Positions 15,815 to 60,148 of a DNA stretch of 64,000 bases are shown here, piece after piece (positions within the stretch are counted from its first letter, which is position 1; each line of letters begins with the position of its first letter). The DNA is taken from assembly GCA_032622095.1 (NCBI GenBank), contig CP136062.1, positions 143,238,351 to 143,302,350 on the forward strand, in the 5' to 3' direction. This stretch comes from Siphonodentalium dalli. Lineage: Eukaryota; Mollusca; Scaphopoda; Gadilida; Siphonodentaliidae. Position numbers and translations under genes: made by a program. The notes under the pieces are model-generated. The model had not been told where the DNA came from. It made no database searches and was given only the letters and a program-made list of their open reading frames with translations.

Positions 15815-31566
<15,752 letters not shown>

Positions 31567-40530: not shown

Positions 40531-42648
40531 TGAGGGTGACGACCCCCTCCCCATGGCATCCGGCTTAAAATGGACCCCGGCATCCGGAATACGCCATAAC
40601 AGAGAGGCGGCATCCGGAATACTATTTGATTAAATTTATTGAAAACAGACTCGGGAACGAAGTGAACGTTGGCATGAGGTATTGGAATTGGTCTCCGTAT
40701 TGGCTATAGTAATGATTTGATTTAGCAGCTTTACGGAAAGATTAAACTTTTTACTAAAATACTAAATGTATGATCTCGATATCATACATATATATGCCCT
40801 GTCTAACTTACTTGCGGCCATATTGGATCCACCAGGTCCGGTTCCGTGGTTTTAGTGCTACAGTTCAAAGTTTTGGAGTAGAATTTCCATATATGACATA
40901 AATGGAAGACATGAATATTCAAAAGCTCCATATATGGAAATGCTACTCCATGCAGTACTTTGATATGTAGCAATAAAACAACCGGGGCTGCATGGAAGAA
41001 TCTCTGATACCACGGAACCGGACCTGCATGGTGGATCTAATATGACTGCGAATTAATGACATATGATATGGCGTATTGGGTGGGGGTGAAAGGCATAGAC
41101 CATGTTCCAAATGACAGGAGTGGTATAATATACTGAATGAGGAGAAGTTGAAGTGGCATGTGCGGAAACCACCTAGCTAATCTTGGTTGACCGTTCATGG
41201 TCGTACACGGTAGTATTGAACACCAGGGACACGCAAATAGAAAACTAACATCTTTTTAATATTTAATATTTCAAATTAAAGGTACTCAATCAGAGGGTCT
41301 CCATATCATCACATTCCAACAAGAACGACAACATGTTTTGAAATGCAGCTTCAGTTATCAGAATCTAATAATTGCCCAAATATAACGAAAAGCACAATCA
41401 ACTATAGTATAAAATTCCACAAAACCTGTTATTTATCAACATTTTGTTCAACGAAATTTTGCCGGTTTGTCAAATATCTAACACAAAAAGCCACTTGATT
41501 TTAGAGTTATCAATCTTTACCCGCAATTTGGTCAATGCAATTCTTCTCGTTGACTGTCTATTGGGCCACTAAAATAATAGATTTCAAACATCGATATTTG
41601 ATCACTCTGAGCTGTGATGGATGGGTTTCTCGACTCGAATCAAATATGTTTACCCCCCCCCCCCAGTGTAGTTCGAGACTCCGAGTCTTAACCCAATCGC
41701 CATTCGCCAAGGGCATATTCTTTTGTCAACACCGCCCTGATTGTACTACTTAGATTGTCTTCTCCGTTGAAGTTTAGTCCAACACTTCGAGTTTCAAACT
41801 TGTTAATGGTGTTATTAAAGGTACGGTTGGCCTTGGCGGTGGGTATCCTGTGAAAATATTTCCACCCGTCAAAAACCGCCACAAACAGAATGAACATCAA
41901 AATGTAGACAGACTTTGTCCGTATATAAATAAGAAATATCGCATAAACAGTATGTTATTCTCATATGTTTAACCATTGTTATGTAAACAAAAGCATAAAA
42001 AGTTACTTTTCTGGTGTTTGTTTATATTATGATGGTAAACATAAAGAGCGTTCTTTGTTGGTGGATTCCTGATATGGAACTAATAAAGAGCGTTTATGCC
42101 ATTTGTGTGTGATTAGCCAGTAGCATTGTGCTGTCCTCTGTAACCCAATCAGGCTCTTGCTTAGGTAAAATATAGTAGGTATTTATGATAACATGCGTTT
42201 ACGCGATGGTCATGGTATATATGAACGAAACTGTATGCGTTTTAATGTTTTTCTGTCTACGGTGTTTGGAACAAATATGAATATTTTCGACAATTAAGGC
42301 CTCACGTGCCTTTAAATTGAAGTCGCATGCAGGCTTCTAAATACATTATTCAAAATTTAATAAAAATTAATTACATATTCAAAATTATTGCCAAGCAGAC
42401 ATCAGATGGGCGACAACTCTATCGGATAATATTATCTAACACACCGATATCGCAGATCAGCATTGCGTATATTTAGATATGTCAGATGTGATAACGAGAC
42501 GTATAATTAGCTAAATTGTGGAAAATAGAGTGTCCGAGCAAAGAAATATAAATTAGCGGACGTAATTTCGTTGCGTTTTTGCTGTTTAACGTCAAGAAAA
42601 TTATCAATGGAAGCATCCGGCATCCGATATATGTGCCCGACGTCATCC
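40531..42648. mobile_element. Left part of an older repeat interrupted by the Polinton
   Basis: Starts TGAGGGTGACGACCCCC at 40531. The inverse, GGGGGTCGTCACCCTCA, ends at 60228 beyond the Polinton, and TATT flanks both ends. CATCCGG-rich segments (for example GCATCCGGAATACGCCATAA) occur on both sides. This suggests one transposon of about 2.2 kb that the Polinton entered. A foldback (about 40811-41055) and a segment related to the 61171-61642 element (about 41277-41720) lie inside. No gene. Confidence 0.5.
40811..41055. mobile_element. Foldback element
   Basis: Left GGATCCACCAGGTCCGGTTC with CGTGGT, right ACCACGGAACCGGACCTGCA with GGTGGATC: imperfect arms of about 110 bp around the TTCCATATATG centre. 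Confidence 0.6.
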
Positions 42649-42654
42649 GGCGTA
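42649..42654. repeat. Polinton target-site duplication, left
   Basis: GGCGTA, identical to 60149-60154. A 6-bp duplication is the hallmark of Polinton/Maverick integration. Confidence 0.9.
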
Positions 42655-43040
42655 AGTAGTAATGGGGGGCACTATGGCCCAGTACCCCCCAGTGGGGGGC
42701 ACTATGGCCCAGTACCCCCCAGTGGGGGGCACTATGGCCCAGTACCCCCCAGTGGGGGGCACTATGGCCCAGTACCCCCCAGTGGGGGGCACTATGGCCC
42801 AGTATCGAATACTGGACGATCTATGGTCCAGTATTCGATACTGGGCCATAGTGCCCCCCACTGGGGGGTACTGGGCCATAGTGCCCCCCCACTGGGGGGT
42901 ACTGGGCCATAGTGCCCCCACTGGGGGGTACTGGGCCATAGTGCCCCCCACTGATGGGTACTGGGCCATAGTTCCCCCCCTGAGGATAGATATTCCTGTC
43001 ATTGATGTGATATTTCTGATCGGAAAAAATGAAAATGGTC
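42655..43040 (+). repeat. Left terminal inverted repeat, outer copy
   Basis: After AGTAGTAAT come five 30-bp units (TGGGGGGCACTATGGCCCAG...), then the core CAGTATCGAATACTGGAC-GATCTATG-GTCCAGTATTCGATACTG (about 42811-42854), then about five units in inverted orientation, the last ones degenerate (CTGATGGG), and a unique stretch GAGGATAGATATTCCTG to about 43040. The whole repeat is therefore itself a palindrome. It matches the right terminus read inward, including the orientation of the 8-base core loop. Confidence 0.9.
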
Positions 43041-43420
43041 GTAATGGGGGGCACTATGGCCCAGTACCCCCCAGTGGGGGGCACTATGGCCCAGTACCCC
43101 CCAGTGGGGGGCACTATGGCCCAGTACCCCCCAGTGGGGGGCACTATGGCCCAGTACCCCCCAGTGGGGGGCACTATGGCCCAGTATCGAATACTGGACC
43201 ATAGATCGTCCAGTATTCGATACTGGGCCATAGTGCCCCCCACTGGGGAGTACTGGGCCATAGTGCCCCCCACTGGGGGGTACTGGGCCATAGTGCCCCC
43301 ACTGGGGGGTACTGGGCCATAGTGCCCCCAACTGATGGGTACTGGGCCATAGTTCCCCCCTGAGGATAGATATTCCTGTCATTGATGTGATATTTCTGAT
43401 CGGAAAAAATGAAAATGGAC
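43041..43420 (+). repeat. Left terminal inverted repeat, inner duplicate with inverted core
   Basis: A second full copy of the terminal repeat, joined at GTAATGGGGGGC without the AGTAGT terminus. The 8-base loop reads CATAGATC instead of GATCTATG, the exact reverse complement, while flanking units keep their order. It then runs into the unique GGAAAAAATGAAAATGGAC sequence also found next to the right TIR. Confidence 0.9.
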
Positions 43421-43505
43421 TTAGAATTATTTTTTTTCAAAAGGAAAATCTCACTTTGGAAAATATCAATTAGCAATCAAGAGTTTTTCTTTTCGAATAT
43501 TTGGT

Positions 43506-43521
43506 GGCCCTGAAAAGGGCC
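43506..43521 (-). terminator. Histone-type 3' stem-loop after the OTU-like gene
   Basis: Minus strand: AAAAC, GGCCCTTTTCAGGGCC, ACCAAA. Six-base-pair stem, UUUC loop, 19 nt after the stop codon. A purine-rich GAAAAGAAAAAC follows, in the place of a histone downstream element. Confidence 0.8.
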
Positions 43522-43540
43522 GTTTTATTTTTGTTATAGT

Positions 43541-44008
43541 TTAGAATCCGCCACATTGAACTTCTTTGTTCGCCAAAACTTCAATTGATTTGTCTCCTCG
43601 CCTCATCCATATTTCGCATTCACAATAATGCTCGTGGCAAACGTGTGGGATCCACACTAGAGTTATTGATGACTTGAATCTTGGTGTTGATTTGTAGCCG
43701 CCTTTGGTAGCATCAAACATGACGATAGGTCGCTGTATAACAGTCGCCGCTAATTCAACCATCAATCTTGATTCAGCCAAAAGTGGTGTGCGCCGTAAAT
43801 CTTGTGCCGACGCACCAAGTTCGTCACTCTCTGCGTAGTACAGGTCAACTGCCGCATCTCTCAGAACCATCCATCCATCGGTCGTCCCGTAAACCGCAAC
43901 GCTGAGTGCCCTCCAAAACAGAGATATTTCTTCGCCGCCGCACACTGCTTTACAGTATACCCCCTGTACCATTATCTCGTCAAGATCTGTTATGTTTACA
44001 GCAGTCAT
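43541..44008 (-). CDS. OTU-like protein lacking the catalytic cysteine (155 aa)
   Basis: OTU proteins are cysteine proteases that cut ubiquitin conjugates. Here the pattern GGEEISLFWRALSVAVYG (residues 24-41) sits where OTU domains have D-G-x-C-L-[FY]-R-A-[LI]; Ser29 is in the cysteine position and the preceding Asp-Gly is absent. Further matches are VLRDAAV (48-54), QRPIVMFD (92-99) and a late HEHYCE (125-130), whose His127-Tyr128 fits the catalytic His region. So this may be a ubiquitin-binding pseudoenzyme or a false resemblance; no search was possible. I place the start at 44008 because the sequence TTCAAAG-ATG at this point is conserved in the duplicated cassette (45615), whereas upstream codons lie in the leader. 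It shares a divergent promoter with the gene at 44632 and ends in a histone-type stem-loop. Cytosolic or nuclear; no signal peptide. Confidence 0.6.
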   Translation of the reverse strand: MTAVNITDLDEIMVQGVYCKAVCGGEEISLFWRALSVAVYGTTDGWMVLRDAAVDLYYAESDELGASAQDLRRTPLLAESRLMVELAATVIQRPIVMFDATKGGYKSTPRFKSSITLVWIPHVCHEHYCECEIWMRRGDKSIEVLANKEVQCGGF

Positions 44009-44041
44009 CTTTGAATGTAGAATAAGTCTGAAGATCCGTCT

Positions 44042-44595
44042 TGAACATATATTACGATTGTGCGGGCGGTAGAGAAAGCACATAATACTTTGACGTTAAA
44101 AATGACAAATGCTTCCTGACGTTGTGTTTCTTTACAGTGCATTATCTGTAGTTTTCACTATTTCGATATGTTATAGATTAAATTCATGATAGTATATGCA
44201 ATTAATTAAGATGTTTTAACATATGAATTCATCTTCGTTCATAAACGATGACCAAGTAAAGTTATCGATTGTAATGATGAAGAAAAATGTTCAGTATGTT
44301 TTCTTGTGTTCAGTTTTATGTATAAAATATGTACATCTCCAAAAACAAAACTAGAAAAACATTCCATATTTTCCTAACGAGGTAACAAATATATCAATCA
44401 TGTGTACCAAATAATAGATAATGATCTAACGAAATAAAAAACATTTGTTTGATCGCTATGCAATAATGATCAAGAAAAATATGAATGCTGATCCGTCTCT
44501 GAAAAAACACAATGCCAGGAAACATTTGTCAATTTTAACGTCAATGCGACATGTGATTTCATTGACGCCCGTGTCAAATGTATAAAAATATTTTC
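44042..44595. promoter_or_regulatory. Divergent promoter, copy 1
   Basis: A ~554-bp intergenic block nearly identical to 45652-46206. The plus-side TATA box TATAAAAA is at 44580-44587, 45 nt before the ATG at 44632. The minus-side TATA-like element (TAATATATG) is near 44053-44045. Each edge carries, in inverted orientation, versions of the motif GTCAA...CATGTG.TTTCTCTACCGCCCG; in this copy the two edges have diverged. Confidence 0.75.
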
Positions 44596-44631
44596 GAATT
44601 TGATCAACGTTACATTGCATTGCTATCAAAG

Positions 44632-45120
44632 ATGGATCCGTTAACAGAATTTCTTCAGAGTGAGATATACAGTAATCCTGTTGTACAGAATACATATGCG
44701 GCACCACAGTCAACAGGCCAAGCTAATACGACAATGACTATAGGTGGAGATACACTCATTTTAAAAGCGATTTTAGATGAACTGAGATGTCTTCGCAGGG
44801 ATATTGACGTGAAAACACAAGTAACGCATCAAGAAGTAAAAGTGAATCTTCGTTTCGTTGCAGAAGAGATAGATATACCAATCAGGGTTCATGATGTTCA
44901 GAGATCGAAAGAACAGAAACAGATCAAAAAAGAAAAAATATTATCGGCGAAAGAAAAAGAACCTAAAAGTATCATGAAGCCTTCTACTGAGACAAAAGTC
45001 AGATTTCGTCTTCCTTGTAAAGAATCTAAAGATACAGAGAAAAGTGATGAATTCGCAAAAGCTATTGGTTCTCATGGGAAAGATATGTCAAGATATAAGA
45101 AAAACACAAAACGATGTTAA
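44632..45120 (+). CDS. Lysine-rich protein of unknown function (162 aa)
   Basis: Starts MDPLTEFLQSEIYS. The frame is open further upstream to an ATG at 44578, but that codon overlaps the TATA box, so 44632 is the better start. The N-terminal third is polar; residues 37-60 (GGDTLILKAILDELRCLRRDID) suggest a short amphipathic helix; the C-terminal half is rich in Lys/Glu (KEQKQIKKEKILSAKEKEPK) and looks disordered and nucleic-acid-binding. No family recognised. It is transcribed from the right side of divergent promoter copy 1 and followed 22 nt after its stop by a histone-type stem-loop. Confidence 0.7.
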   Translation: MDPLTEFLQSEIYSNPVVQNTYAAPQSTGQANTTMTIGGDTLILKAILDELRCLRRDIDVKTQVTHQEVKVNLRFVAEEIDIPIRVHDVQRSKEQKQIKKEKILSAKEKEPKSIMKPSTETKVRFRLPCKESKDTEKSDEFAKAIGSHGKDMSRYKKNTKRC

Positions 45121-45142
45121 AGTCAGATGATAATTTTAAAAC

Positions 45143-45158
45143 GGCCCTTTTCAGGGCC
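45143..45158 (+). terminator. Histone-type 3' stem-loop after the 162-aa gene
   Basis: AAAAC, GGCCCTTTTCAGGGCC, ACACACA, then AAAAGGTTACTCTTTC. The stem, loop and flanks fit the metazoan histone consensus. Confidence 0.8.
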
Positions 45159-45369
45159 ACACACATTTCCCAAAAGGTTACTCTTTCATTGCTGAAAAAA
45201 TCAAAAACACGATTGTTCAATTTATATTTTATTCAACAACAAATATTTGCAAGTATATTTTGTTTTAAATTATTCGTGGCGTGATTTTTTCAAAACAAAA
45301 CATAGGGTACAAAGAACATTATTAGTTATTAAGCAATGCTAAAAGTTTTTCTTTTTGAAAAAATTGGTT

Positions 45370-45413
45370 GGTCCTGAAAAGGACCGTTTTTGTTTTTGGC
45401 CCTGAAAAGGGCC
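45370..45413 (-). terminator. Tandem pair of histone-type stem-loops
   Basis: Minus strand, proximal (45413-45398): AAAAC-GGCCCTTTTCAGGGCC. Distal (45385-45370): AAAAAC-GGTCCTTTTCAGGACC-AACCAA. The C-G pair of the first has become T-A in the second, so pairing is kept. AAAAAGAAAAAC follows the distal loop, as after the OTU-like gene. The first loop begins 14 nt after the stop codon at 45427. Confidence 0.8.
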
Positions 45414-45426
45414 GTTTTGTATGGCA

Positions 45427-45615
45427 TCAAAGTTCACGCCACGATTTTCTTTTGAGACTTTTGCTTTTGTTCCAACGCTGTTGTTTTTTGCATATTTGCA
45501 TAACCAGTTTTGCACTGGCGGTTACTTCTTTTGCGTGTTCGCCCCGCATTATCTGGGGTGTTAGCCCTATCGTTCCTCTTAGTATAGACATCAACGGTTC
45601 GGGGGTTTCGGACAT
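45427..45615 (-). CDS. Small basic protein (62 aa), unknown
   Basis: Occupies the same place in cassette 2 as the OTU-like gene in cassette 1. The leader and the TTCAAAG-ATG context are homologous, but the protein (MSETPEPLMSILRG start, KSKSLKRKSWREL end) is unrelated and much shorter. Predicted mainly helical with a basic tail. It is followed by two histone-type stem-loops. No family recognised; it may be a decayed or replaced cargo gene. Confidence 0.5.
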   Translation of the reverse strand: MSETPEPLMSILRGTIGLTPQIMRGEHAKEVTASAKLVMQICKKQQRWNKSKSLKRKSWREL

Positions 45616-45651
45616 CTTTGAATGCAGAATAAAAATTGTTCACGGCCGTGT

Positions 45652-46206
45652 TTGAACATATATTACGATTGCGCGGGCGGTAGAGAAAGCACATGTCGCA
45701 TTGACTTTAAAAATGACAAATGCTTCCTGACGTTGTGTTTCTTTACAGTGCATTATCTGTAGTTTTCACTATTTCGATATGTTATAGATTAAATTCATGA
45801 TAGTATATGCAATTAATTAAGATGTTTTAACATATGAATTCATCTTCGTTCATAAACGATGACCAAGTAAAGTTATCGATTGTAATGATGAAGAAAAATG
45901 TTCAGTATGTTTTCTTGTGTTCAGTTTTATGTATAAAATATGTACATCTCCAAAAACAAAACTAGAAAAACATTCCATATTTTCCTAACGAGGTAACAAA
46001 TATATCAATCATGTGTACCAAATAATAGATAATGATCTAACGAAATAAAAAACATTTGTTTGATCGCTATGCAATAATGATCAAGAAAAATATGAATGCT
46101 GATCCGTCTCTGAAAAAACACAACGCCAGGAAACATTTGTCAATTTTAACGTCAATGCGACATGTGATTTCTCTACCGCCCGTGTCAAATGTATAAAAAT
46201 ATTTTC
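45652..46206. promoter_or_regulatory. Divergent promoter, copy 2
   Basis: Nearly identical to 44042-44595. The plus-side TATAAAAA is at 46192-46199, 33 nt upstream of the ATG at 46232. Both edges carry the same motif facing outward: GTCAATGCGACATGTG followed by TTTCTCTACCGCCCG (plus side about 46152-46182, minus side about 45705-45675). The core promoter is thus mirror-symmetric. A CATGTG E-box is embedded. Confidence 0.75.
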
Positions 46207-46231
46207 ACTTTTTCAGTGAACTTCATTCATT

Positions 46232-46582
46232 ATGCCGTCTCTAAAGAAATTTTTCAAGAAGCTATGGAGGAAGAGAGATTCGTCAGAGGAGACGAAAATC
46301 AGAACCTATAGGAAATGGCAGGATTCTCCTAAACAAAAGGTGGTGCAGAAACAGATGTTAACAGATTTTCTGGCTCGGCGACGACCATCGGCTGAAGTAT
46401 GTGATCAAGAACCAAGCAATCTTGATCTCGTGGAGATCTTGTCACAGATCTCGAAGAAAGATCTGTGCAATGCAGCAATTGACAGCTTCGCTCAGGCTGC
46501 TGCGGCGCACAGATCAAACCCTACTTGGTCTGTGACAATTAATCCCAACGGGATATATCCTGATTTGGCAGAATTTTTATGA
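46232..46582 (+). CDS. Basic protein of unknown function (116 aa)
   Basis: Starts MPSLKKFFKKLWRKRDSSEE, a strongly basic amphipathic N-terminus, then QKQMLTDFLARRRPS and a helical, Ala-rich segment (LCNAAIDSFAQAAAA). It ends NPNGIYPDLAEFL. The N-terminus could bind nucleic acid or membranes. No family recognised. TATA box 33 nt upstream; a histone-type stem-loop begins 19 nt after the stop. Confidence 0.7.
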   Translation: MPSLKKFFKKLWRKRDSSEETKIRTYRKWQDSPKQKVVQKQMLTDFLARRRPSAEVCDQEPSNLDLVEILSQISKKDLCNAAIDSFAQAAAAHRSNPTWSVTINPNGIYPDLAEFL

Positions 46583-46600
46583 ATTCTGGAAAAGAAAAAC

Positions 46601-46616
46601 GGCCCTTTTCAGGGCC
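46601..46616 (+). terminator. Histone-type 3' stem-loop after the 116-aa gene
   Basis: GAAAAAC, GGCCCTTTTCAGGGCC, ACCCACA, then CAAAAAGGTTACTCTTTC. This is the closest of the five to the canonical AAAAC/ACCCA flanks. Confidence 0.85.
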
Positions 46617-46690
46617 ACCCACATTCCCCAAAAAGGTTACTCTTTCATAGCTGAAAAAAACAAAACAAAACACGATTGTTCAATTCATAA

Positions 46691-46727: not shown

Positions 46728-47312
46728 TCATTTATCTGTTTTTGGAATGTAGAATTGTCTCAGCTTCTTTTTCTTGGAAGTTTTCTTGGAATTTTCAAAA
46801 TCTGGATGCTTATCTTCAGATTTGTTCTGTGAATCATTCGTAGGATCAACAGGTCGGGGTTGTTTGAAAACATCTGATGTTGTAGACATCTCTTCAGTTT
46901 TGATAACTGCATTTTGTTCTTGTATTGTTACTGCTTGTAGACTTTTTTGTATAGTTTTCACATTTTTTTTGTCGTCGAAATCTGTTTTACATTGGAAGGA
47001 CCAATGGGAGTCTTGTCCGCATTTGTAACAGTAACCATATGGTGGTTTCCAATTTTTATCAGCTTTGTTTTTCTCTTTTTTCTCTTGCCATTGCATTTTG
47101 TTACAAAATTTAAACAAATCAGTAGAGATCTGTCTCAATTCGACAAGATTATCTTGAATTTTTCTAGTCTGTAGTAGTGTAGATTTTTTTGATTCTTCTT
47201 TATGCAGCTCAATATAGCTCTCTTCAATAACTGCAGGCCTTGGTCTTTTTCTAACAATATCTTCTTCGCTGGCGGAGTCGTCTGAAACAGGTCTTTTGAT
47301 TCTCTTAAACAT
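46728..47312 (-). CDS. CCHC zinc-knuckle protein (194 aa), divergent partner of the polymerase
   Basis: Residues 95-108 (CYKCGQDSHWSFQC) form a C-x2-C-x4-H-x4-C zinc knuckle, a single-stranded nucleic-acid-binding module. The first 32 residues (MFKRIKRPVSDD... VIEES) are identical to those of the DNA polymerase encoded on the other strand, because the start of both genes lies in the arms of an inverted repeat. This shared part has KRIKRP and RKRPRP basic clusters and probably targets both proteins to the nucleus. The middle is helical and Lys/Gln-rich; the C-terminus is basic (KKTSKKKKLRQF). A single-strand binding or replication accessory role is an inference from the motif and the shared promoter. 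Confidence 0.75.
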   Translation of the reverse strand: MFKRIKRPVSDDSASEEDIVRKRPRPAVIEESYIELHKEESKKSTLLQTRKIQDNLVELRQISTDLFKFCNKMQWQEKKEKNKADKNWKPPYGYCYKCGQDSHWSFQCKTDFDDKKNVKTIQKSLQAVTIQEQNAVIKTEEMSTTSDVFKQPRPVDPTNDSQNKSEDKHPDFENSKKTSKKKKLRQFYIPKTDK

Positions 47313-47632
47313 TTTTGTCTTGAGTTTTTGTCAGCAAAAAATATTGCGACTGGCTTCTTCGGAGTTGAAGTGTAAAGTGTATAATTACACAATTTTAACA
47401 CCTGCTTTTATAGCAGTCACGATGAAAAATGCTATAAAAGCAAGTGTAAAATTGTGTAATTATACACTTTACACTTCAACTCCGAAGAAGCCAGTCGCAA
47501 TATTTTTTGCTGACAAAAACTCAAGACAAAAATGTTTAAGAGAATCAAAAGACCTGTTTCAGACGACTCCGCCAGCGAAGAAGATATTGTTAGAAAAAGA
47601 CCAAGGCCTGCAGTTATTGAAGAGAGCGATAT
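47213..47632. promoter_or_regulatory. Mirror-image divergent promoter shared by polymerase and CCHC genes
   Basis: Two arms of about 200 bp (47213-47414 and 47431-47632) are near-perfect inverted repeats around a 16-bp spacer. Each arm holds a TATAAAAG box (47412-47405 on minus, 47433-47440 on plus), a leader of about 90 nt and the first 32 codons. The main visible difference is near the centre (TTTTAACACCTGC versus TTTTACACTTGC). Both mRNAs would have essentially the same 5' end. Confidence 0.9.
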
Positions 47633-50600
47633 GGAAACTAATGAGGCAGAAAGTGAAGAGAGCGATATGGAAACTGATGAGGCAGAAAGGGAAGAGAGCG
47701 ATATGGAAACTGATGGGGGAGAAAGTGAAGAGAGCGATATGGAAACTGATGGAGGCGAAAGTGAAGAAAGTTCTAGTGATGGTCAGATTGGACGCGGTCG
47801 AAGACAGAATAGAGAAATTGGTGGGAAGAGAAAGAGAAGTCTGGCTAGAGAGCGTGTTGTGTTCAATCCAACAAAATATTTCAAATTGGAGCTGAACTCG
47901 GAGAAATTTTCCAGAAAATTTAAATCAGCATCACGACAATTTGGTGTGAAATTCGAGAAATTTACAGATCCAATCGAAAACATTCCAGAGATATTTGAGA
48001 AGTTGACAGAAGAATTGAAACAGAAATGTTCAGCAAATGAGAAGACAAGAATCAGAGTTACGATAAATCATCCAGGACTTGATATGAACATTTTCATTCC
48101 ATTCACAAAAGCCAGTGAATTGAATGGTGAGACACTCATGGATAATATTCAAAATGTGGTTCAATCAAATGCAGACTTTACAATTCATGACGGTGCACTC
48201 AATTTCGAAATCTTCGTTACAGATATTCCGGAAGGTGGTACACGACACTCACTACATTATGGACCATTTGCAGACAAGAACAAGCTTACAAAAGTGAAAA
48301 GAAGTATTGTCCGGATTGAAAATGCTGATGATGTTATGTGTATGGCAAGATCTATTGTCGTCGGAATGTGTAAGGCAGATAGTGATGGATCTGCGTGCTG
48401 GTCAAAGAAATGGAAAAGAATAAGACAATCAATATACACAGCACAAACAGATGCAGCAAAAAATCTACTCAACCGTGCTGGTATTCCACACGATACAGTT
48501 TGCAGTATCAATGAGTTCCACAAGATTCAAGAAATATTGTATCCAGAATATGTTGTGAAAATTCACAATGAATTTGCTGGCGCTGGATTTCTATTTGAAC
48601 CTGCAGAAATGTGTTCGGAGAGCAAATGTGTACACATCTACTACAACAACAATCACTTCGACACCATAACATCAATCAAAGGATTTCTAGGCACCAGCTA
48701 CTACTGCGAATTCTGTGACATTGGATTCAAAAGTCGTGGCGATCATCGATGCAGATTTGTTTGTGCATGCTGGTCATTGACACAGTGTAATTTCACAAAT
48801 TTGGTGAAGTGTAGAACGTGTCGACGATCATTCAGAAGTAAATCTTGTTTCGACAACCATTTGAAGACGGAAGGAAAACAGAAAAGAAAAATATGTGATT
48901 TGGTTCAACTATGCAACAATTGTGATGAAGAATTTCTCATCAATAAATCAAACAGACATATATGTGCGGGGTTGAAGAAATGCAAACATTGCAAAGAAAT
49001 CGTTGAAGCAGATCACAGGTGCTACATTCCAAAATATGAATCACCGGAAAAGAAACCTGCAAAGATTCCATATGTATTCTTTGACTTTGAATGCAGACAA
49101 GACACAGGTGTTCATATTCCAAACTTCTGTGTTGCACATACCGCTTGTGGAGATTGCATGTGCAAACCAATCGAAGAAAAATGTGAAACATGCGGACCGG
49201 ATTCCAGAGAATTTGTATTCAAGGGTGACAACGTTTTAACAGACTTCACAAACTGGTTATTCCATCAAGATCACAAAGGATGTGTTGCAATAGCACATAA
49301 TGCTCAGGGATACGATGCACAGTTTCTACTTCAAGCACTCATACAAAGTGGAATTCATAAACCAGAACTGATCATGAATGGAAACAAAATTCTCAGTTTA
49401 AAATGCAACAGCGTGAAAGTTATTGATTCTCTGAGTTTTCTGATGATGCCGCTTTCAAAATTTCCACAAACTTTTCAGCTGAATGAGATGGCAAAAGGAC
49501 ACTTTCCACATTGGGCGAATTCACCAAAGTTTCAAAATTACATTGGACCTTACTTGGCTTGTGATTACTACAAACCAGATATGATGAGCGTGGAAAATCG
49601 AGAGAAATTCTTTGAATGGTACAATGAGAAAATAGAAAATTATGCGATATTCAACTTCCAAGAAGAGATAGAGAAGTACTGCAAATCAGACGTGGATATT
49701 CTTCGCCGTGGATGTGGAAAATTCAGGAAATACATATTGGAAACAGAACAGATTGACCCGTTCATTGAGTCAATAACATTGGCACAAGTTTGCAATTTGG
49801 CATGGAGGAAGAATTCAATGCCAGAGAAAACAATTGGAATCATTCCAGATGGTGGATACCCATGTGCTAAAAACTATTCCATGAAAGCGATACGTTGGCT
49901 TCAACATATATCATTGTCACGTATGATAACAATCAAGCATGCTTTGAATGGAGGAGAAATCAAGATTGGTGGACACTACGTCGATGGATATGAGGAAGCC
50001 ACAAGAACAGTTTTTGAGATGAATGGATGTCTGTTTCATGGATGTCCAAAATGTTACAACAACAGACAATACAAGAATCCCTATACGATGCTCACCATGG
50101 AAGAATTATATACAAGAACCCAACAGAAGAAAGATGAACTGGAAAGTCTTGGTTACAGAGTTGAATCAATTTGGGAGCATCAGATCGACGAAAGAATGAA
50201 ATCGGATGTGAAATTCAAACAACAAATGGAATCTTTCTACAAACATCGAGACCCCATTTTGCCAAGAGAAGCATTGTTTGGTGGACGTACAAATGCCATC
50301 AAATTGTACGAGGAAATTGATCAAGATTCCACAAAAGAAATCAAGTTCATCGATGTGTGTTCGTTGTATCCATTTTGCAACAAATATAAATTCTACCCTG
50401 TTGGACATCCAGAAATTTTGAGCCAAGAGCAGATCGATCAAGAACACATTAGAGACTATGCGGGGCTTGTTAAATGTACAATTTTACCACCATCGAAATT
50501 GTATATTCCAGTTCTACCGATTCATTGTAACAAGAAAATGGTTTTTACTCTGTGCAACACTTGTGCCATCAATGAGAACGAGGCATGTAACCATTCAGAA

Positions 50601-51605
50601 GAAGATCGAGCTATAACCGGAGTGTGGACCACGCCAGAATTATTCAAAGCAATGGATGTTGGCTACAAAATACTTGATGTGTACCAAATTTGGCATTGGA
50701 CAGATTGGACAGATGAAATATACAAATCCTATATCGATAAACATCTAAAGATCAAACAGGAATGTAGTGGTTATCCATTTGGTGTTGAGACAGAAGAACA
50801 GAAACAAAAGTTTGTACAGGATTATTATGCAGCTGAGGGTATAAAATTGGAGAACATCGAGAAGAATCCAGGAAAACGTCAAATATCTAAAATTATGATT
50901 AATTGTATATGGGGTAAGAATGCACAAAGAAATCTTATGTCAAAAACAGAGTATGTGGATAAACCATCACGTTATTTTGAATTGCTTACTAGTAACAATA
51001 TAATTGTTCAAAATGTTACACTTCTTGATGGTGACAAATTCATTCTGGTAAATTATGTTGATATCTTAGATAATATTGAACCTCATCATTCAGCAAATGT
51101 TGTTGTTGCTTCTTTTGTTACAGCGTATGCAAGATTACAATTGTATAAAGTTTTAGAAAAACTTGGAGATAGAGTGCTGTATTTTGATACAGACAGCTGT
51201 ATGTATGTCAGTGATCCATCAAAGAAGAACATCAAAACTATCGAAGGAAGATTGGGAAAATGGAGCGACGAACATCCAGATGCAAAGATTGTCAAATTTG
51301 TTGGACTTGGGCCAAAGAACTACGGATATGAATACATCAAAGATGGGAGAAGATACACCAAATGTAAGGTAAAAGGTATCACTCTTGATTACAGCACAAG
51401 TCAAAAAGTTAATTTTGAAACAATGGTACAATGTGTTAATGATCGTGAAAATTTCAAAACTGTTGTTGAGTATCCTTCCAGAATTAAAAGACAAAAGAAC
51501 CATCAATTGATTAGTGAGTGTCAAACCAAAACTTTCAGATCGGTGTACACAAAACGAAAACTCGTCAATGGTATTCATACATACCCATACGGATGGAGAT
51601 GTTGA
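47532..51605 (+). CDS. Protein-primed family B DNA polymerase (1357 aa)
   Basis: pPolB replicates Polinton DNA from a protein primer bound to the ends. Exonuclease motifs: ExoI D518-F-E520, ExoII HN590..YD595, ExoIII Y716-C-K-S-D720. Polymerase motifs: A DVCSLYP (941-947), B KIMINCIWG (ending G1128), C YFDTDS (1217-1222, Asp1219 and Asp1221), and the KxY-type PKNYGY (Lys1262, Tyr1264). All key residues are present and the frame is intact. N-terminal extension: basic shared segment (1-32), four acidic repeats of EESDMETD-type (about 32-80) and a basic RGRRQNREIGGKRKR stretch. Residues about 390-500 are rich in paired Cys/His (CEFC, CRTC, CNNC, CKHC), likely zinc-binding. Length suits animal Polinton polymerases. 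Start chosen because it is the first ATG after the TATA box. Confidence 0.97.
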   Translation: MFKRIKRPVSDDSASEEDIVRKRPRPAVIEESDMETNEAESEESDMETDEAEREESDMETDGGESEESDMETDGGESEESSSDGQIGRGRRQNREIGGKRKRSLARERVVFNPTKYFKLELNSEKFSRKFKSASRQFGVKFEKFTDPIENIPEIFEKLTEELKQKCSANEKTRIRVTINHPGLDMNIFIPFTKASELNGETLMDNIQNVVQSNADFTIHDGALNFEIFVTDIPEGGTRHSLHYGPFADKNKLTKVKRSIVRIENADDVMCMARSIVVGMCKADSDGSACWSKKWKRIRQSIYTAQTDAAKNLLNRAGIPHDTVCSINEFHKIQEILYPEYVVKIHNEFAGAGFLFEPAEMCSESKCVHIYYNNNHFDTITSIKGFLGTSYYCEFCDIGFKSRGDHRCRFVCACWSLTQCNFTNLVKCRTCRRSFRSKSCFDNHLKTEGKQKRKICDLVQLCNNCDEEFLINKSNRHICAGLKKCKHCKEIVEADHRCYIPKYESPEKKPAKIPYVFFDFECRQDTGVHIPNFCVAHTACGDCMCKPIEEKCETCGPDSREFVFKGDNVLTDFTNWLFHQDHKGCVAIAHNAQGYDAQFLLQALIQSGIHKPELIMNGNKILSLKCNSVKVIDSLSFLMMPLSKFPQTFQLNEMAKGHFPHWANSPKFQNYIGPYLACDYYKPDMMSVENREKFFEWYNEKIENYAIFNFQEEIEKYCKSDVDILRRGCGKFRKYILETEQIDPFIESITLAQVCNLAWRKNSMPEKTIGIIPDGGYPCAKNYSMKAIRWLQHISLSRMITIKHALNGGEIKIGGHYVDGYEEATRTVFEMNGCLFHGCPKCYNNRQYKNPYTMLTMEELYTRTQQKKDELESLGYRVESIWEHQIDERMKSDVKFKQQMESFYKHRDPILPREALFGGRTNAIKLYEEIDQDSTKEIKFIDVCSLYPFCNKYKFYPVGHPEILSQEQIDQEHIRDYAGLVKCTILPPSKLYIPVLPIHCNKKMVFTLCNTCAINENEACNHSEEDRAITGVWTTPELFKAMDVGYKILDVYQIWHWTDWTDEIYKSYIDKHLKIKQECSGYPFGVETEEQKQKFVQDYYAAEGIKLENIEKNPGKRQISKIMINCIWGKNAQRNLMSKTEYVDKPSRYFELLTSNNIIVQNVTLLDGDKFILVNYVDILDNIEPHHSANVVVASFVTAYARLQLYKVLEKLGDRVLYFDTDSCMYVSDPSKKNIKTIEGRLGKWSDEHPDAKIVKFVGLGPKNYGYEYIKDGRRYTKCKVKGITLDYSTSQKVNFETMVQCVNDRENFKTVVEYPSRIKRQKNHQLISECQTKTFRSVYTKRKLVNGIHTYPYGWRC

Positions 51606-53571: not shown

Positions 53572-53934
53572 ATGCCTTCAAAAACTAAGAGCCGGAAAGC
53601 ACCGCTGATAAAAAAATATGGTGAGTTGATTGTTGCAATGAGTAAAGTTCCATCTGCATATAAAAAGAAAATGATCAACGATGCTCCGAAACAAGTGATG
53701 GATTGCATTTCAGAATGTTGTCAAAATCTTTTAAAAGGTAATGTAAAACTGAATGAAGCTCAGAACCGCAAGTTACATTCGAAGCGTAAACATATCAGAT
53801 ATCTTGCAGACAAGAACAAACCTTTGCAACAAAAGAAGAAAATTTTGAATCAAAAAGGTGGCTTTTTACCATTATTATTTCTTGCTCCATTGATTAGCAA
53901 AACATTAGGTGCAGTTGTTAAAAATATTTTGTAA
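53572..53934 (+). CDS. Small basic protein with QKGG motif and hydrophobic tail (120 aa)
   Basis: The first 90 residues are highly basic (MPSKTKSRKAPL, KRKHIRYLADKNK). QKGG at residues 94-97 is followed by a hydrophobic C-terminal segment (FLPLLFLAPLISKTLGAVV). It has the same Gly-Gly-then-hydrophobic layout as the preceding gene, so the two may be related minor virion components, for example pX/mu-like, cleaved by the protease at 58900. Assignment is tentative. The first ATG is at 53572. Confidence 0.65.
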   Translation: MPSKTKSRKAPLIKKYGELIVAMSKVPSAYKKKMINDAPKQVMDCISECCQNLLKGNVKLNEAQNRKLHSKRKHIRYLADKNKPLQQKKKILNQKGGFLPLLFLAPLISKTLGAVVKNIL

Positions 53935-53954: not shown

Positions 53955-54564
53955 ATGAAGAAAATGGTTATTGTACCATTCAGAATGTTGGAAGATTTCA
54001 AACAATGGGAAATGTCAGAAATGAATAAACCTCAATTACCTCCTGATCCTGCAATTTCAAATGTTTCAGATTCTTACAAAGAATTGAAATCAGTTTATGA
54101 TAAAAATATTTCTGAATCAGAAAAGTCACAGTTATTTGGAGAAAATTTGTACAAATTGAAAACTTCACAAAAATCTTTAAATTCAAAATTCAGATTACCT
54201 GAACAAAAGTTATCTGAAAACTTTGGGAAAATGAGTGACCATATATTGGAAAGTGTGCCATCTAAATTTCGTGGTAAAGCACAACAAATTTTATCATTGT
54301 TGTCAACTAATCCGAAAAGGTTTTAACCCAGTTGGTTATGAAACATTCCTACGTGGATTGGGGGAACTTAATATACCACAAGATTATGTAGGTAACAGGG
54401 ATCGATGGCTGTGGATGCAAAGACATTTAAAAGGTCACACTGGTGATGAGTTTCATACACCTCATGCAACTCCTATCAGTGGCAAGTCAAGAAAACGTTC
54501 AGTTGATATTTTAACACCAGAAACCAGAAAAACTATTTTGAAAGGATGGTCCTCACTTACATAA
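53955..54564 (+). pseudogene. Conserved Polinton protein before the integrase, broken by a +1 frame change
   Basis: The first part (53955-54326) starts MKKMVIVPFRMLEDFKQW and contains VPSKFRGKAQQILSLL, a helical segment common before the integrase in Polintons. It ends at a TAA (54324-54326) preceded by a T run. The next frame (+1) is open from before 54235 to 54564 and carries GFNPVGYETFLRGLGELNIP, which reads as the continuation of the same domain. So one gene appears split by a +1 shift at or just before 54,320. It could be a point indel, with or without loss of intervening codons, or programmed +1 frameshifting. Function unknown. The second frame overlaps the integrase start by 19 nt. Confidence 0.7.
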
Positions 54565-55640
54565 AATTTGACAAACTTCTAACTGAAATTTACTACAATC
54601 CAAAAGAAGTTGGTGGTTTCAGTGGAGCAAATCAACTTTTTAAAAATGCAAAAGAAACAAATAACAAAATTAAACTTTCAGATGTTAAAAAATGGTTACA
54701 ATGGCAAAAAACATATACTTTGCACAAACCAATTGTTCGGAAATTTCGCAGACGTAAAACTATTGTTGCAGGAATTGATATTCAGTGGCAAGCTGATCTG
54801 GCAGATTTGCAAACTTTGCAAAAGCACAATGACAATTACAGATATTTACTTTGTGTTATTGATGTGTTCTCAAAATTTGCATGGGTTGAAAAAATTAAAG
54901 ATAAAACTGGTAAAACTTTAGTTAAAACATTTCAGAAAATTCTAAAATCATCAAAACGAAAACCAGCTTCATTTCAATCTGACAAAGGTTCAGAATTCAA
55001 AAATAAATTATTTTTACAATTTTTGAAATCTAAGAAAATTCATTTTTTCACAACAGAGAATCCAGAGACAAAAGCAAGTATAGTTGAACGTTTTCAACGG
55101 ACATTGAAAACAAAGATGTGGAAATATTTTACACATAATCAAACTTTGAAATACGTTGATGTTTTGCACGATTTTGTGAATTCTTACAACAAAAGTTTTC
55201 ATAGAAGTATTAAGATGGCACCAGTTTTAGTAACTCGAGAAAATGAAATTGAAGTTTCCAGAAATCTTTATGGAAAGTTAAAAACGAAAAAAGATAAGAT
55301 GTTGAAAGTTGGAGATTTTGTTAGAATAAATAAAACAAAGAGAACTTTTGATAAAGGATATCTTCCAAATTGGACAAAAGAAATTTTCAAAATTAGTAGA
55401 GTTTGTAAAAGTACACCATTAACTTACAAATTAGTAGATTTAGATGGTGAAAACATCGCAGGATCATTTTATGGTAAAGAAATTCAACATATAAAAGATA
55501 ATAAAGTTTACGAAATTGAATCAGTTGTTGGTAAACGTTCAAGAAAAGTTGCTGGTAAATCAGTTAGAGAAATTAAAGTTCATTGGGCTGGTTATCCTAA
55601 AAAATTTGACAGTTGGATACCTGCCACAAATTTGGTATAA
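54546..55640 (+). CDS. Retroviral-type DDE integrase with chromodomain (364 aa)
   Basis: Joins the element ends to host DNA; the observed 6-bp duplication is the footprint of this enzyme class. Catalytic triad: Asp84 (WQADLADL), Asp146 (QSDKGSEF) and Glu181 (SIVERFQRT), giving D-x61-D-x34-E. Residues about 50-75 are basic. The C-terminal region has an SH3-like segment (VGDFVRINK) and ends in a chromodomain (about 320-364: VYEIESVVGKR ... IKVHWAGYP ... DSWIPATNLV), which in related elements can direct insertion to particular chromatin. The frame is intact, starting at the ATG that overlaps the preceding gene. Confidence 0.95.
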   Translation: MVLTYIKFDKLLTEIYYNPKEVGGFSGANQLFKNAKETNNKIKLSDVKKWLQWQKTYTLHKPIVRKFRRRKTIVAGIDIQWQADLADLQTLQKHNDNYRYLLCVIDVFSKFAWVEKIKDKTGKTLVKTFQKILKSSKRKPASFQSDKGSEFKNKLFLQFLKSKKIHFFTTENPETKASIVERFQRTLKTKMWKYFTHNQTLKYVDVLHDFVNSYNKSFHRSIKMAPVLVTRENEIEVSRNLYGKLKTKKDKMLKVGDFVRINKTKRTFDKGYLPNWTKEIFKISRVCKSTPLTYKLVDLDGENIAGSFYGKEIQHIKDNKVYEIESVVGKRSRKVAGKSVREIKVHWAGYPKKFDSWIPATNLV

Positions 55641-57144: not shown

Positions 57145-58453
57145 ATGGCACAAATGGTAAATGGATCATGCGAATGCAATAAATCGGAACTTGATATAAC
57201 ACATGTTCCACCAACGGTGGCTACAATGTCAGAATCGCAGTGGATCGAAAATCATCCTATTGCACCGCTGAATAATTCTGCTCCGATAGAGTTTGTCATA
57301 CCATCTCAAACCGAAAAGTGGACAGATATTAATCAATCTTATCTTTATGTGAAATTCAAAATTACAAAAAAAGATGGAACTAATTTGGTAGCTGCTACGG
57401 AATTAGCACCTGTTAACAATTTCTTTCATAGCATGTTCAGCAGTATCGATGTTTACTTGAACAACAAATTGATAACTTCGAATTCTGACACTTACCCATA
57501 CCGAGCATATTTCGAAAATCTGTTGGGATACTCTCAAGAATATAAAGATAATCAATTAGCAAATTTAGAAATGTGGTATGGCGATATATACAGCAGAACA
57601 ATTTGAAGAGAGCACCAAAGGTGGTGCTAATGCTGGATTAACTTCTAGAGAAAGTTTGATCACTGGTAGTAAATTTGTTGAACTATGCGGACGCTTACAC
57701 ACCGATCTGTTTCTTCAAGAAAAATATTTACCAAATGGAATTGAAATTCGTATCAGATTAAACAGATCACCATCAAAATTTTGCCTCATTGGCTCCGAGG
57801 ATGGACAAATTGTTTTCGAATCAGCAGTGTTCCATGTCAGAACAGTTAGTCTCTTTCCAGCGGTCTCAAATAAATTAAATCAAGAAATTGCCCAGTCAAA
57901 AATGAAACTACCTATCAGACGAGTAGAAATAAAAACTTTCACAATTAGTACTGGACTTAGATCAAAAATTGAAGACCACTTATTTCAAGGACAATTACCA
58001 AAGAGACTTTTTATTGCGTTGGTCGAAAATAAAGATATGAATGGAGATTTGGGTACCAATCCATTCCACTTCAAACATTTCAGTTTGAATAAATTGGAAG
58101 TTAGTCAAGACGGTCATACAATACATAACCGTCCATTTGAACCAAACTTCGCAACAAAACAATGTCTCAGATCATATTTATCTTTGTATCAATCTTTAGG
58201 AATGTTTGGTGTTAACAAATCAATTGGCATTAATTTAAAAGAATATATGAATGGTTATTGTTTGTGGGGTTTCGACTTGACACCGGACCAAGGAAGCGAC
58301 GAGGGACATCTACATCCTATAAAGACAGGGAACCTGCGTTTGGAGCTTCAGTTCTTGACAGCTCTCACTACAGCCGTCAACGTTTTGGTGTATGCTGAAT
58401 TCGACAGTGAAATAGAGATCACAGCTTTGAGAGAAGTGCTTACTGACTATTAG
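57145..58453 (+). CDS. Major capsid protein, double jelly-roll; reading frame broken once
   Basis: The hexon-like major capsid protein. Frame 1 (57145-57606) starts MAQMVNGSCECNK and holds the first conserved blocks (PIEFVIPSQTEKWTDI, PVNNFFHSMFSSIDVYLN, YPYRAYFENLLGY). The +1 frame, open at 57578-58453, holds the rest (LTSRESLITGSKF, LCGRLHTDLFLQEKYLPNG, ILVYAEFDS-like end). The two frames overlap between 57578 and 57606, where the shift must lie. Combined length, about 435 codons, fits the family, so little is lost. The break inactivates this copy unless it is a sequencing error or programmed shift. Confidence 0.9.
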
Positions 58454-58454
58454 G

Positions 58455-58913
58455 ATGGAGTTCACAACACAGCTATGGAACTACTATGAAGAATACCGAC
58501 GTTCACAACACGTTGCTCCGAGATTAAAACTGATCTTGGACACACTCAACAACGCTACGATTGAAGAACTACAAGAAATTATTCGCAAGGAAGTGTCAGC
58601 AAACTGTGAAGGATGTAAAATAGAACATCCTAGTCAACGTGAACATGTTCTGTGTTTGTTCTCTACAACTGATGATTGGACAAACCAGTTTATCGACTTA
58701 GCGCTGATTAAAATTGACATATACAATGTTATGGAAAGATGGTTCCCGAAGCTGATGGAGTTAAACCCACACTGCAAGGAGAAGTTCGAAGCATACCTTA
58801 TGTGGGATCATCTGAGAAACAGTTTGGAGCTCAACCGCAAAAAATTCGATGCAGAGTGGACTCTGATGTGGTCACAGCGAGTCAAAGAGAATTACAACGA
58901 TGCAGACAGCTGA
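58455..58913 (+). CDS. Conserved Cys/His protein of unknown function (152 aa)
   Basis: Starts one base after the capsid stop. Residues 51-67 (CEGCKIEHPSQREHVLC) give Cys51, Cys54, His58, His64 and Cys67, a likely zinc site. The N-terminus is helical (LWNYYEEYRRSQ) and the C-terminus rich in Trp/Glu/Lys. A gene of this kind between capsid and protease genes recurs in Polintons; its role is not known to me. It overlaps the protease start by 14 nt. Confidence 0.7.
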   Translation: MEFTTQLWNYYEEYRRSQHVAPRLKLILDTLNNATIEELQEIIRKEVSANCEGCKIEHPSQREHVLCLFSTTDDWTNQFIDLALIKIDIYNVMERWFPKLMELNPHCKEKFEAYLMWDHLRNSLELNRKKFDAEWTLMWSQRVKENYNDADS

Positions 58914-59373
58914 ACTTCAATATATTCTGGACAATTCCTGGTTGTGTAAACTTAACACACATGTTTGTGCTAGAGATCTGTTACCAGAGAAGAAACCACA
59001 GCATATTCAAGCATATATTGTGAACACGCACTCATCGGATCAGCCAGGAGAACACTGGACATTGATGTTATTCAAGGGAAGATCAGCTGTATACTTCGAC
59101 TCATTTGGACTACCACCACCGAGACGATATATGTTACCATTCATAAAAAGGAACTCATCAGCATGGACTATGAATACAACACGATATCAACATCGTGCGA
59201 CAAATGTGTGTGGATTATATTGTATATTCGCACTCCACCACATGATGAAAGGAAAGAGGATGAAAATATTATTCAATTCTCGGGATTTCTTCAAGAATGA
59301 CAGAACAATAGTTCGATGGTTTGGAAAGCACTATGGTCGATTATACAGAAAAGCAAATTTGCTGTTGAATTAA
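58900..59373 (+). CDS. Adenain-like cysteine protease (157 aa)
   Basis: Maturation protease (peptidase family C5) that cleaves virion precursor proteins after capsid assembly. Catalytic residues in order: His52 (GEHWTLMLF), Asp67 (VYFDSFGLPPP), Gln97 (RYQHRATN) and Cys104 (NVCGLYCIF). Length is shorter than the ~200-aa adenovirus enzyme but usual for Polintons. Intact frame, last gene of the plus cluster. Confidence 0.93.
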   Translation: MQTAELQYILDNSWLCKLNTHVCARDLLPEKKPQHIQAYIVNTHSSDQPGEHWTLMLFKGRSAVYFDSFGLPPPRRYMLPFIKRNSSAWTMNTTRYQHRATNVCGLYCIFALHHMMKGKRMKILFNSRDFFKNDRTIVRWFGKHYGRLYRKANLLLN

Positions 59374-59754
59374 ACTTCACCAGGACATCGACGGCTGATA
59401 TACATACAACGCAAAGAAGACGACGACCAGATAACAACGAATGTGTCAACAACTCCACAAAATAGACTCTTTTGTTATTGATTCAGCGTAGGATGTTGTA
59501 GGATGTTGTAGGATGTTCAATTAAGTTTCTTCAAATCTGAGACCTTGTTTTGTACATAAATTATTGTTCTTTGTTAATATTATTGATGTATAATAATATA
59601 TTATTGTTCATTGTTCTTGTTCTTGTTTTTGAAAAATAAATGATAAATTTCAACAAAATCGTTTTCACTGTAGGATCCCCACCAATTGATTCTGTTCGTG
59701 TCGATGTGTCATCTCTGGTCAGAATTATACAAACTTTAAAATTAGTAATGAAAA
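59374..59754. other. 3' region of the plus-strand gene cluster
   Basis: Non-coding. Contains three TAGGATGTTG repeats (59488-59517) and a likely poly(A) signal AATAAA at 59635-59640, about 260 nt after the protease stop. No histone-type stem-loop is present here. Confidence 0.6.
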
Positions 59755-60148
59755 AATGTCTAAGTCCATTTTCATTTTTTCCGATCAGAAATATCACATC
59801 AATGACAGGAATATCTATCCTCAGGGGGGGAACTATGGCCCAGTACCCATCAGTGGGGGGCACTATGGCCCAGTACCCCCCAGTGGGGGCACTATGGCCC
59901 AGTACCCCCCAGTGGGGGGCACTATGGCCCAGTACCCCCCAGTGGGGGGCACTATGGCCCAGTATCGAATACTGGACCATAGATCGTCCAGTATTCGATA
60001 CTGGGCCATAGTGCCCCCCACTGGGGGGTACTGGGCCATAGTGCCCCCCACTGGGGGGTACTGGGCCATAGTGCCCCCCACTGGGGGGTACTGGGCCATA
60101 GTGCCCCCCACTGGGGGGTACTGGGCCATAGTGCCCCCCATTACTACT
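59755..60148 (-). repeat. Right terminal inverted repeat
   Basis: The inverse of the left terminus: unique CATTTTTTCCGATCAGAAAT and CAGGAATATCTATCCTC, five 30-bp units, the core with loop CATAGATC on the plus strand (GATCTATG read inward, as in the outer left copy), five inverted units, then CCATTACTACT. Present once only, unlike the left side. Confidence 0.92.

Follow-up and report, generated by a model that had tools for sequence, protein, structure and literature searches.

In metazoans the 3' ends of replication-dependent histone mRNAs are formed by a dedicated pathway, in which SLBP sits on a stem-loop, the U7 small nuclear ribonucleoprotein (U7 snRNP) pairs with the transcript downstream, and cleavage leaves an mRNA without poly(A) that persists in S phase only. 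To our knowledge, such ends are held to be almost exclusive to the replication-dependent histone genes. We analysed a 64,000-nucleotide stretch of the genome of Siphonodentalium dalli (contig CP136062.1, positions 143,238,351 to 143,302,350; the whole stretch is called the window, and positions are given in it). It contains a Polinton in whose left arm (43,506-46,616) four genes, here named A to D, end in stem-loops of the histone type. We consider it probable, at roughly 80%, that these are real replication-dependent-histone-type 3'-end signals of the Polinton, and that the mRNAs of A-D would be of the SLBP/U7 type, non-polyadenylated and limited to S phase. A Polinton, an element of known kind, would then be making unexpected use of a known signal.

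The Polinton ends have the stem, the loop, the flanks, the purine-rich stretch and the short stop distance of the metazoan model (Rfam RF00032, Histone3), and the genes that carry them form divergent pairs as histone genes do. What differs from histone genes is that A-D are genes of a mobile element without a recognisable histone domain. The tandem stem-loops of gene C and the AATAAA beside the stem-loop of gene A are likewise peculiarities of the Polinton. Compared with Polinton/Maverick elements and adintoviruses, the element has the same family B polymerase, chromodomain integrase, packaging ATPase, adenain-like protease and inverted terminal repeat arrays, and the histone-type 3' ends are the difference. 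In the excerpts of PMC11071296, a chromodomain integrase and a polymerase with an N-terminal OTU-like domain belong to the definition of adintoviruses; histone-like proteins are also reported there for other viruses, a matter distinct from histone-type ends. The Histone3 match given for SARS-CoV-2 in the excerpts of PMC7786107 has 14.7 bits and lies inside a coding region, whereas the Polinton matches above the cut-off reach 34.8-44.2 bits and stand at gene ends.

Detection of histone-type stem-loops

The whole window was scanned against 4227 Rfam families with their curated cut-offs. Four Histone3 matches, and nothing else, exceeded them (42.6, 41.8, 40.1 and 37.1 bits for a cut-off of 34). 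These matches, a fifth stem-loop of lower score, the genes to which they belong and the adjacent gene E are the following, with lengths in amino acids (aa) and nucleotides (nt):

43541..44083, minus strand: gene A, 180 aa (155 aa from an inner ATG at 44008), no recognised domain, purifying selection
43506..43521, minus strand: histone-type stem-loop of gene A, 19 nt past the stop, 41.8 bits at 43526-43480
43479..43502, minus strand: purine-rich stretch downstream of gene A, AAATATTCGAAAAGAAAAACTCTT, candidate U7-pairing site
44578..45120, plus strand: gene B, 180 aa (162 aa from the ATG at 44632), LPCKE motif (LxCxE), purifying selection
45143..45158, plus strand: histone-type stem-loop of gene B, 22 nt past the stop, 40.1 bits at 45138-45182
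45159..45182, plus strand: downstream flank of the gene B stem-loop, with the purine-rich stretch CCCAAAAGG
45427..45615, minus strand: gene C, 62 aa, frame present in the 10 copies read, selection unclear
45398..45413, minus strand: first stem-loop of gene C, 13 nt past the stop, 22.2 bits
45370..45385, minus strand: second stem-loop of gene C (C2), a pair-preserving variant followed by a purine-rich stretch, 37.1 bits at 45390-45344
46232..46582, plus strand: gene D, 116 aa, no recognised domain, purifying selection
46601..46616, plus strand: histone-type stem-loop of gene D, 18 nt past the stop, 42.6 bits at 46596-46641
46728..47312, minus strand: gene E, zinc-knuckle-like, no stem-loop, AATAAA 31 nt past the stop

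The 16-mer GGCCCTTTTCAGGGCC is found exactly at 43506-43521(-), 45143-45158(+), 45398-45413(-) and 46601-46616(+), and its variant GGTCCTTTTCAGGACC at 45370-45385(-). Allowing up to three mismatches, five copies were found for 0.18 expected, and none of 100 dinucleotide shuffles reached five. All five have the sense orientation of their gene, three on the minus and two on the plus strand. No additional Histone3 match was detected between 42,900 and 60,200 up to E = 1.

The covariance alignments show a 6-bp stem with a 4-nt loop, an A-rich upstream flank and an ACC-type downstream flank. Read in gene sense, the UUUC loop and the A-rich upstream flank are present in 5/5 stem-loops, and the ACC/ACA/AACC flank with the purine-rich stretch in 4/5. 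The one without them is the first stem-loop of gene C (45393-45418), which with 22.2 bits also stays below the cut-off. Its tandem partner lies 12 nt further on; there the pair C3-G14 has become U3-A14, so that pairing is kept (GGTCC..GGACC).

A preliminary description, made from the letters of this DNA alone, had reported five copies including one variant, on both strands and always in gene sense. It had likened them to the metazoan replication-dependent histone 3' end and had named a covariance search as a possible refutation. The pattern search and the strand assignments bear this out, four of the five stem-loops pass the RF00032 cut-off, and all 11 further copies of the Polinton discussed below have matches above it. 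The earlier count of four genes for five copies is refined in that gene C carries two of them. The four genes stand, and the distance of 14-22 nt then given between stop and element is replaced by the values listed above (A 19, B 22, C 13, D 18).

Comparison with the host histone genes

The host genome (2.23 Gb in 9 contigs) was searched for Histone3, and 75 of 409,530 first-look candidates were scored. All 75 exceeded the cut-off; the four matches of the window are not among them, which makes this number a lower bound. By position, 63 of the at least 75 matches belong to histone-array regions; the other 12 all lie within 11 further copies of this Polinton. The histone-array matches form clusters at C5:111.42-111.74 Mb (40), C8:156.30-156.34 Mb (10) and C8:156.88-156.93 Mb (13). 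Loci read from the first two encode H2A, H2B and H4; H3 and H1 were not seen in the loci read. The third cluster, unread, was taken as histone because of its regular 4-kb spacing and identical score.

In the histone arrays, 72 of 72 stem-loops (29 loci, some overlapping) have a 16-mer identical to that of the Polinton, and this identity holds for the H2A, H2B and H4 ends. When 13 loci were scored for Histone3, 39 matches lay above the cut-off, 9 from the host genes (40.8-42.4 bits) and 30 from the Polinton (34.8-44.2 bits); every one of the 11 Polinton loci had one or more. Below the cut-off were the first gene C stem-loop and altered stem-loops in loci L001, L033, L034 and L036. The comparison with the host histone genes that the preliminary description had called for thus gave an identical 16-mer, scores in the same range and similar flanks. 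The layout is also alike, the host H2B and H2A genes forming a divergent pair of which both members end in stem-loops, as do A/B and C/D. An SLBP is encoded by the host: PF15247 was matched on two exons (60.6 and 31.4 bits, cut-off 27), with the RNA-binding domain present.

Purine-rich stretches had first been noticed after at least the minus-strand stem-loops; they also follow the plus-strand ones, the first stem-loop of gene C being the exception. The downstream elements are ACCCAAATTTTCCAAAAAGATAAAC in host H2A/H2B and ACCAAATTATTTTAAAGAGATACTTT in host H4, and, in the Polinton, ACCAAATATTCGAAAAGAAAAACTC (A), AACCAATTTTTTCAAAAAGAAAAACT (C2), ACACACATTTCCCAAAAGGTTACTC (B) and ACCCACATTCCCCAAAAAGGTTACTC (D). 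Similarity was assessed on 36-nt flanks with 2000 dinucleotide shuffles. Against host H2B, p was about 0.0005 for A, B and C2 and 0.001 for D, the gene A flank doing better than 2000/2000 shuffles. Against H2A it was 0.005 (A), 0.002 (B), 0.0005 (C2) and 0.001 (D), and against H4 0.006 (A), 0.08 (B), 0.0045 (C2) and 0.67 (D). Among 2244 real 36-mers of the region, flanks included, those scoring as high against H2B numbered 12 (A), 32 (B), 1 (C2) and 32 (D). This likeness would fit ends that share the U7 of the histone genes, that derive from a host histone gene, or that do both.

With the host comparison added, we regard the observation as confirmed and strengthened; on sequence grounds, the interpretation appears well supported up to the RNA level.

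Genes carrying the stem-loops

As judged by a Pfam scan, A, B, D and an alternative 86-aa frame of C are not recognisable histones: no family was matched up to E = 10 (the 62-aa frame of C lay outside the scan). This alternative frame overlaps the 62-aa one and would place the stop 20 nt from the stem; the copies favour the 62-aa frame, 45427-45615(-).

The ratio of nonsynonymous to synonymous change (dN/dS) was calculated against the window copy. It was 0.33-0.41 for gene A (5/5 copies), 0.13-0.46 for gene B in four of five copies (0.79 in the fifth, whose open reading frame is cut to 111 codons) and 0.14-0.40 for gene D in eight of nine (dS being 0 in the remaining one). On this measure A, B and D look like functional genes. 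Gene C, in its 62-aa frame, gave ratios of about 0.45-0.8 in 6 of 10 copies; one copy is identical, and three have dN 0.029 with dS 0, so that constraint on C is not demonstrated. Gene E gave 0.44-1.40 in six of seven copies, the seventh having dS 0. With its AATAAA and no stem-loop, gene E is a control within the same element; its zinc knuckle scores 22.5 bits, below its own cut-off of 27.

Searches for the functions of A, B and D were less informative. Homologues of A or D were not found in 5.8 billion proteins, a search that covered A, D and the polymerase. Among PDB sequences, A matched ribosomal protein uL3 at E 0.063 or worse, from which no function was assigned, B matched a poxvirus chemokine inhibitor at E 0.0092 across a charged stretch, which we did not use, and D matched nothing up to E = 10. 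The PHROGs search with B yielded just two matches, at E 0.37 and E 0.44, again without a function being assigned. Single-sequence structure models of A and D were too poor for use (predicted local distance difference test, pLDDT, 39.9 and 50.6). By eye, protein A (43541-44083, minus strand) looks like an OTU cysteine protease with the catalytic Cys changed to Ser, a likeness supported by no search or model.

Persistence of the stem-loops among Polinton copies

The 3.16-kb stretch 43480-46640 occurs at at least 40 places in the genome (895 candidates). At 20 of the at least 40 places scored, the window included, it is 100% identical (rounded) over its full length; the Polinton family has therefore spread very recently, and the many near-identical copies suggest that the element was recently active. 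For a finer comparison, the window was set against 19 copies: 11 came from the genome searches, and eight were the full-length matches of lowest rank. Loci that ended short of a piece, deletions of the piece, and matches under 75% coverage or 87% identity yielded no row, which left 14 (A), 19 (B), 19 (C) and 18 (D) rows including the window.

The stem-loops equal to the consensus number 14/14 for A, 18/19 for B, 17/19 and 16/19 for the two of C, and 17/18 for D, in total 82/89. Of the seven variants, four (three different changes) retain pairing as U-G, and the other three disrupt a pair. The cells that differ make up 7/1424 (0.49%) of the stem-loops and 116/5664 (2.05%) of the flanks. The coding sequence of gene C is most divergent in L032, L033 and L034, with a dS of 0.51-0.64 (an upper estimate, obtained without gaps over 45 codons, the last few possibly misaligned). 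All three keep both gene C stem-loops, two of them with a U-G pair. The copies L033 and L034 (C9:52.18 and 52.40 Mb) resemble each other, are oppositely oriented and are separated by about 210 kb; they share an internal deletion that extends from gene D almost to the end of the polymerase gene.

Proposed 3'-end formation and alternative readings

SLBP/U7 processing, the lack of poly(A) and the S-phase timing are what we infer from these signals. In cells that make it, the host SLBP would bind the stem-loops of the A-D pre-mRNAs, and the U7 snRNP would pair with the purine-rich stretch about 10-20 nt downstream. Cleavage 4-5 nt past the stem would yield mRNAs without poly(A), whose synthesis, translation and decay would follow those of histone mRNA, and the four left-arm proteins would appear only during host DNA replication. 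The signals thus suggest that the element ties A-D to host DNA replication.

Several observations weigh against this reading. No U7 small nuclear RNA was found in the host genome above the cut-off of 34, the best candidate having 26.8 bits. The flanks of B and D are unlike that of H4 (p 0.08 and 0.67), and the gene A flank of copy L032 is closer to H4 (0.0015) than to H2B (0.03) or H2A (0.08). Gene C shows no clear purifying selection. A pair is broken in 3/89 stem-loops among the copies, and by columns the stem-loops are not significantly less variable than the flanks (6/80 against 45/321 variable columns, Fisher p = 0.08), so that their lower variation is suggestive only. The analysis covers one Polinton family in one genome. 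Finally, gene A has an AATAAA at +11 from its stop, with 2 nt between it and the stem-loop; another lies about 190 nt past the stop of gene C. Five sub-threshold U7 candidates were read and none was convincing; one has an Sm-type site, AATTTTTCTAG, with no obvious upstream complement by eye.

The two AATAAA signals make polyadenylation outside S phase possible for both A and C, and in gene A it could take place at nearly the same site as the stem-loop. They lead to a reading that overlaps the preferred one and that we hold as a tentative possibility to be taken seriously: dual-mode ends, formed by the histone machinery in S phase and through AATAAA, as polyadenylated mRNA, outside it, which would give an S-phase boost and not a strict limit. 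There is a precedent in human histone genes. In the excerpts of PMC9756948, H2AC18 and other dual-mode genes have a polyadenylation signal close to the stem-loop, as gene A has, and H2AC18 recruits either machinery. The H2AC18 signal overlaps the downstream element, whereas that of gene A precedes the stem-loop, as does that of human H4 in the same excerpts. For B and D the dual mode has no such basis, neither AATAAA nor ATTAAA occurring within 400 nt past their stops.

It is improbable that the ends are passive passengers, a histone 3' end having been captured once, copied with its module and now being without function in the element. Spread of a module is indeed visible: the 3' ends of B and D have about 115-120 nt in common at 86-90%, while their proteins are not alike, so that duplications within the element appear to have multiplied the 3' module. 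Many copies are also too young for their lack of change to tell much, and the excess conservation of the stem-loops is not significant by columns. A functionless passenger would nevertheless have stayed in gene sense and at a comparable distance behind unrelated coding sequences, genes A, B and D being themselves under purifying selection. It would also have preserved pairing through a double change in C2, and both stem-loops would have persisted in the three copies whose gene C coding is clearly different.

It is hardly credible that the palindrome functions at the DNA level, whether as a protein-binding site, in recombination or as a terminator-like hairpin, or that it is a generic hairpin for RNA stability unlinked to the histone pathway. 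Its form, a perfect 6-bp inverted repeat within an element rich in repeats, speaks for such a role, but the gene-sense UUUC loop and A-rich flank (5/5) and the downstream flank with the purine-rich stretch (4/5) are those of host histone ends, and no copy of the stem-loop lies elsewhere in the element.

Under the preferred reading, that of SLBP/U7-type ends, the motif of protein B deserves mention. LxCxE, as found in DNA tumour viruses, binds the retinoblastoma protein. The LPCKE of B (frame 44632-45120, plus strand, context LPCKESKDTEKSDE) is the only LxCxE in frames of at least 60 residues between 42,901 and 59,600. It is kept in 5/5 full-length B proteins read, window included, and is followed by an acidic stretch. 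In shuffled proteins the motif arises by chance in 1.6% of cases for B and in 6.7% for any of A-D. The motif is weak evidence that would fit a promotion of S phase by B; a text search of the open literature gave no report of LxCxE in adintoviruses. A wider scheme, which we rate as rather unlikely, would have two classes of genes, with left-arm regulators restricted to S phase by histone-type ends, and gene E and possibly the right arm using poly(A), the LxCxE of B letting the Polinton both sense and promote host replication. If this is true, we know of no earlier example of a mobile element with the SLBP pathway as its cell-cycle clock.

Novelty and significance

The presence of histone-type 3' ends in a Polinton is likely to be new. 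Among the open-literature matches listed there is no report of histone stem-loops in Polintons, with most subscription papers and preprints outside the coverage. A viral contig collection was also searched. A strict stem-loop pattern, too strict for canonical flanks, gave 0 matches, and neither the polymerase nor the polymerase alignment A1 retrieved a relative; the absence there therefore does not prove an absence in animal Polintons. A looser pattern selected 2 contigs that have no Histone3 match up to E = 0.1 and look like bacterial phages (tRNA, bacterial small RNA-type match).

A mobile, virus-like element with tens of copies and several such genes would show that the SLBP/U7 pathway is open to takeover. 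The A-D ends would offer a natural non-histone test of the signal requirements, and they would suggest how an integrated element could confine its expression to cells where it can replicate.

Organisation of the element and likely origin of its 3' ends

The left arm is built on a duplication that includes two shared promoter regions:

44041..44595, no strand: shared promoter region of the divergent genes A and B, first copy of the duplication
45652..46206, no strand: shared promoter region of the divergent genes C and D, second copy of the duplication

Both regions are 98% identical over their first 300 nt, and an inverted similar block of about 70 nt stands at their ends (81-96%, other copies compared with the window). 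The likeliest origin of the 3' ends is capture from a host histone gene followed by duplication inside the element. Homology to histone promoters was considered on the basis of one 11-mer in common with the H2B-H2A intergenic region (GAAAATATGGA) and, with no shuffle comparison, not used.

Further genes of the element are the following:

47532..51605, plus strand: family B DNA polymerase, PF03175, 134.3 bits
52243..52893, plus strand: packaging-type ATPase (Pox_A32 family), 35.1 bits, cut-off 22.8
54546..55640, plus strand: retrovirus-type integrase with C-terminal chromodomain, rve 48.3 bits, Chromo 25.1 bits, equal to its cut-off of 25.1
58900..59373, plus strand: adenain-like protease, Peptidase_C5, 20.2 bits, just under the cut-off of 21.3

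The chromodomain occupies residues 322-363 of the 364 of the integrase. The terminal inverted repeats, 43038-43360 and 59825-60147, are 98% complementary over 323 nt. From this gene set and these repeats we identify the element, by its sequence, as an adintovirus-like Polinton. Public metagenomes and genomes contain 360 relatives of its polymerase, of which 120 were listed. The 18 at the top of the list have 51-59% identity; those listed from animals such as Tubulanus, Ruditapes, Mytilus, beetles and fishes are more distant. The Pfam scan gave no N-terminal OTU-like domain for the polymerase, a structure-aware search not having been made, and no match for 57578-58453, the candidate frame for a double-jelly-roll major capsid protein. 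By eye, 57145-57606 and 57578-58453 are overlapping frames where one capsid-type gene might be expected, which may be broken here. A small basic protein at 53572-53934 (plus strand) has a weak Adeno_PX match (13.4 bits, cut-off 25) and is perhaps encoded by a core-protein-like gene.

Gene E and the polymerase have identical first 32 residues on opposite strands, which stem from a 189-nt inverted repeat (47209-47397 and 47447-47635, 99% complementary). The terminal arrays are made of a 30-nt repeat, at 42626-43360 and 59751-60148, the left end comprising two arrays, and their palindromic parts give sub-threshold matches to microRNA families. Lastly, a dispersed repeat of the window (28022-28397, 30556-30936 and 6070-6373) also lies within host histone-array units on C5, where the copy in locus L031 has 76-84% identity over 305-383 nt.

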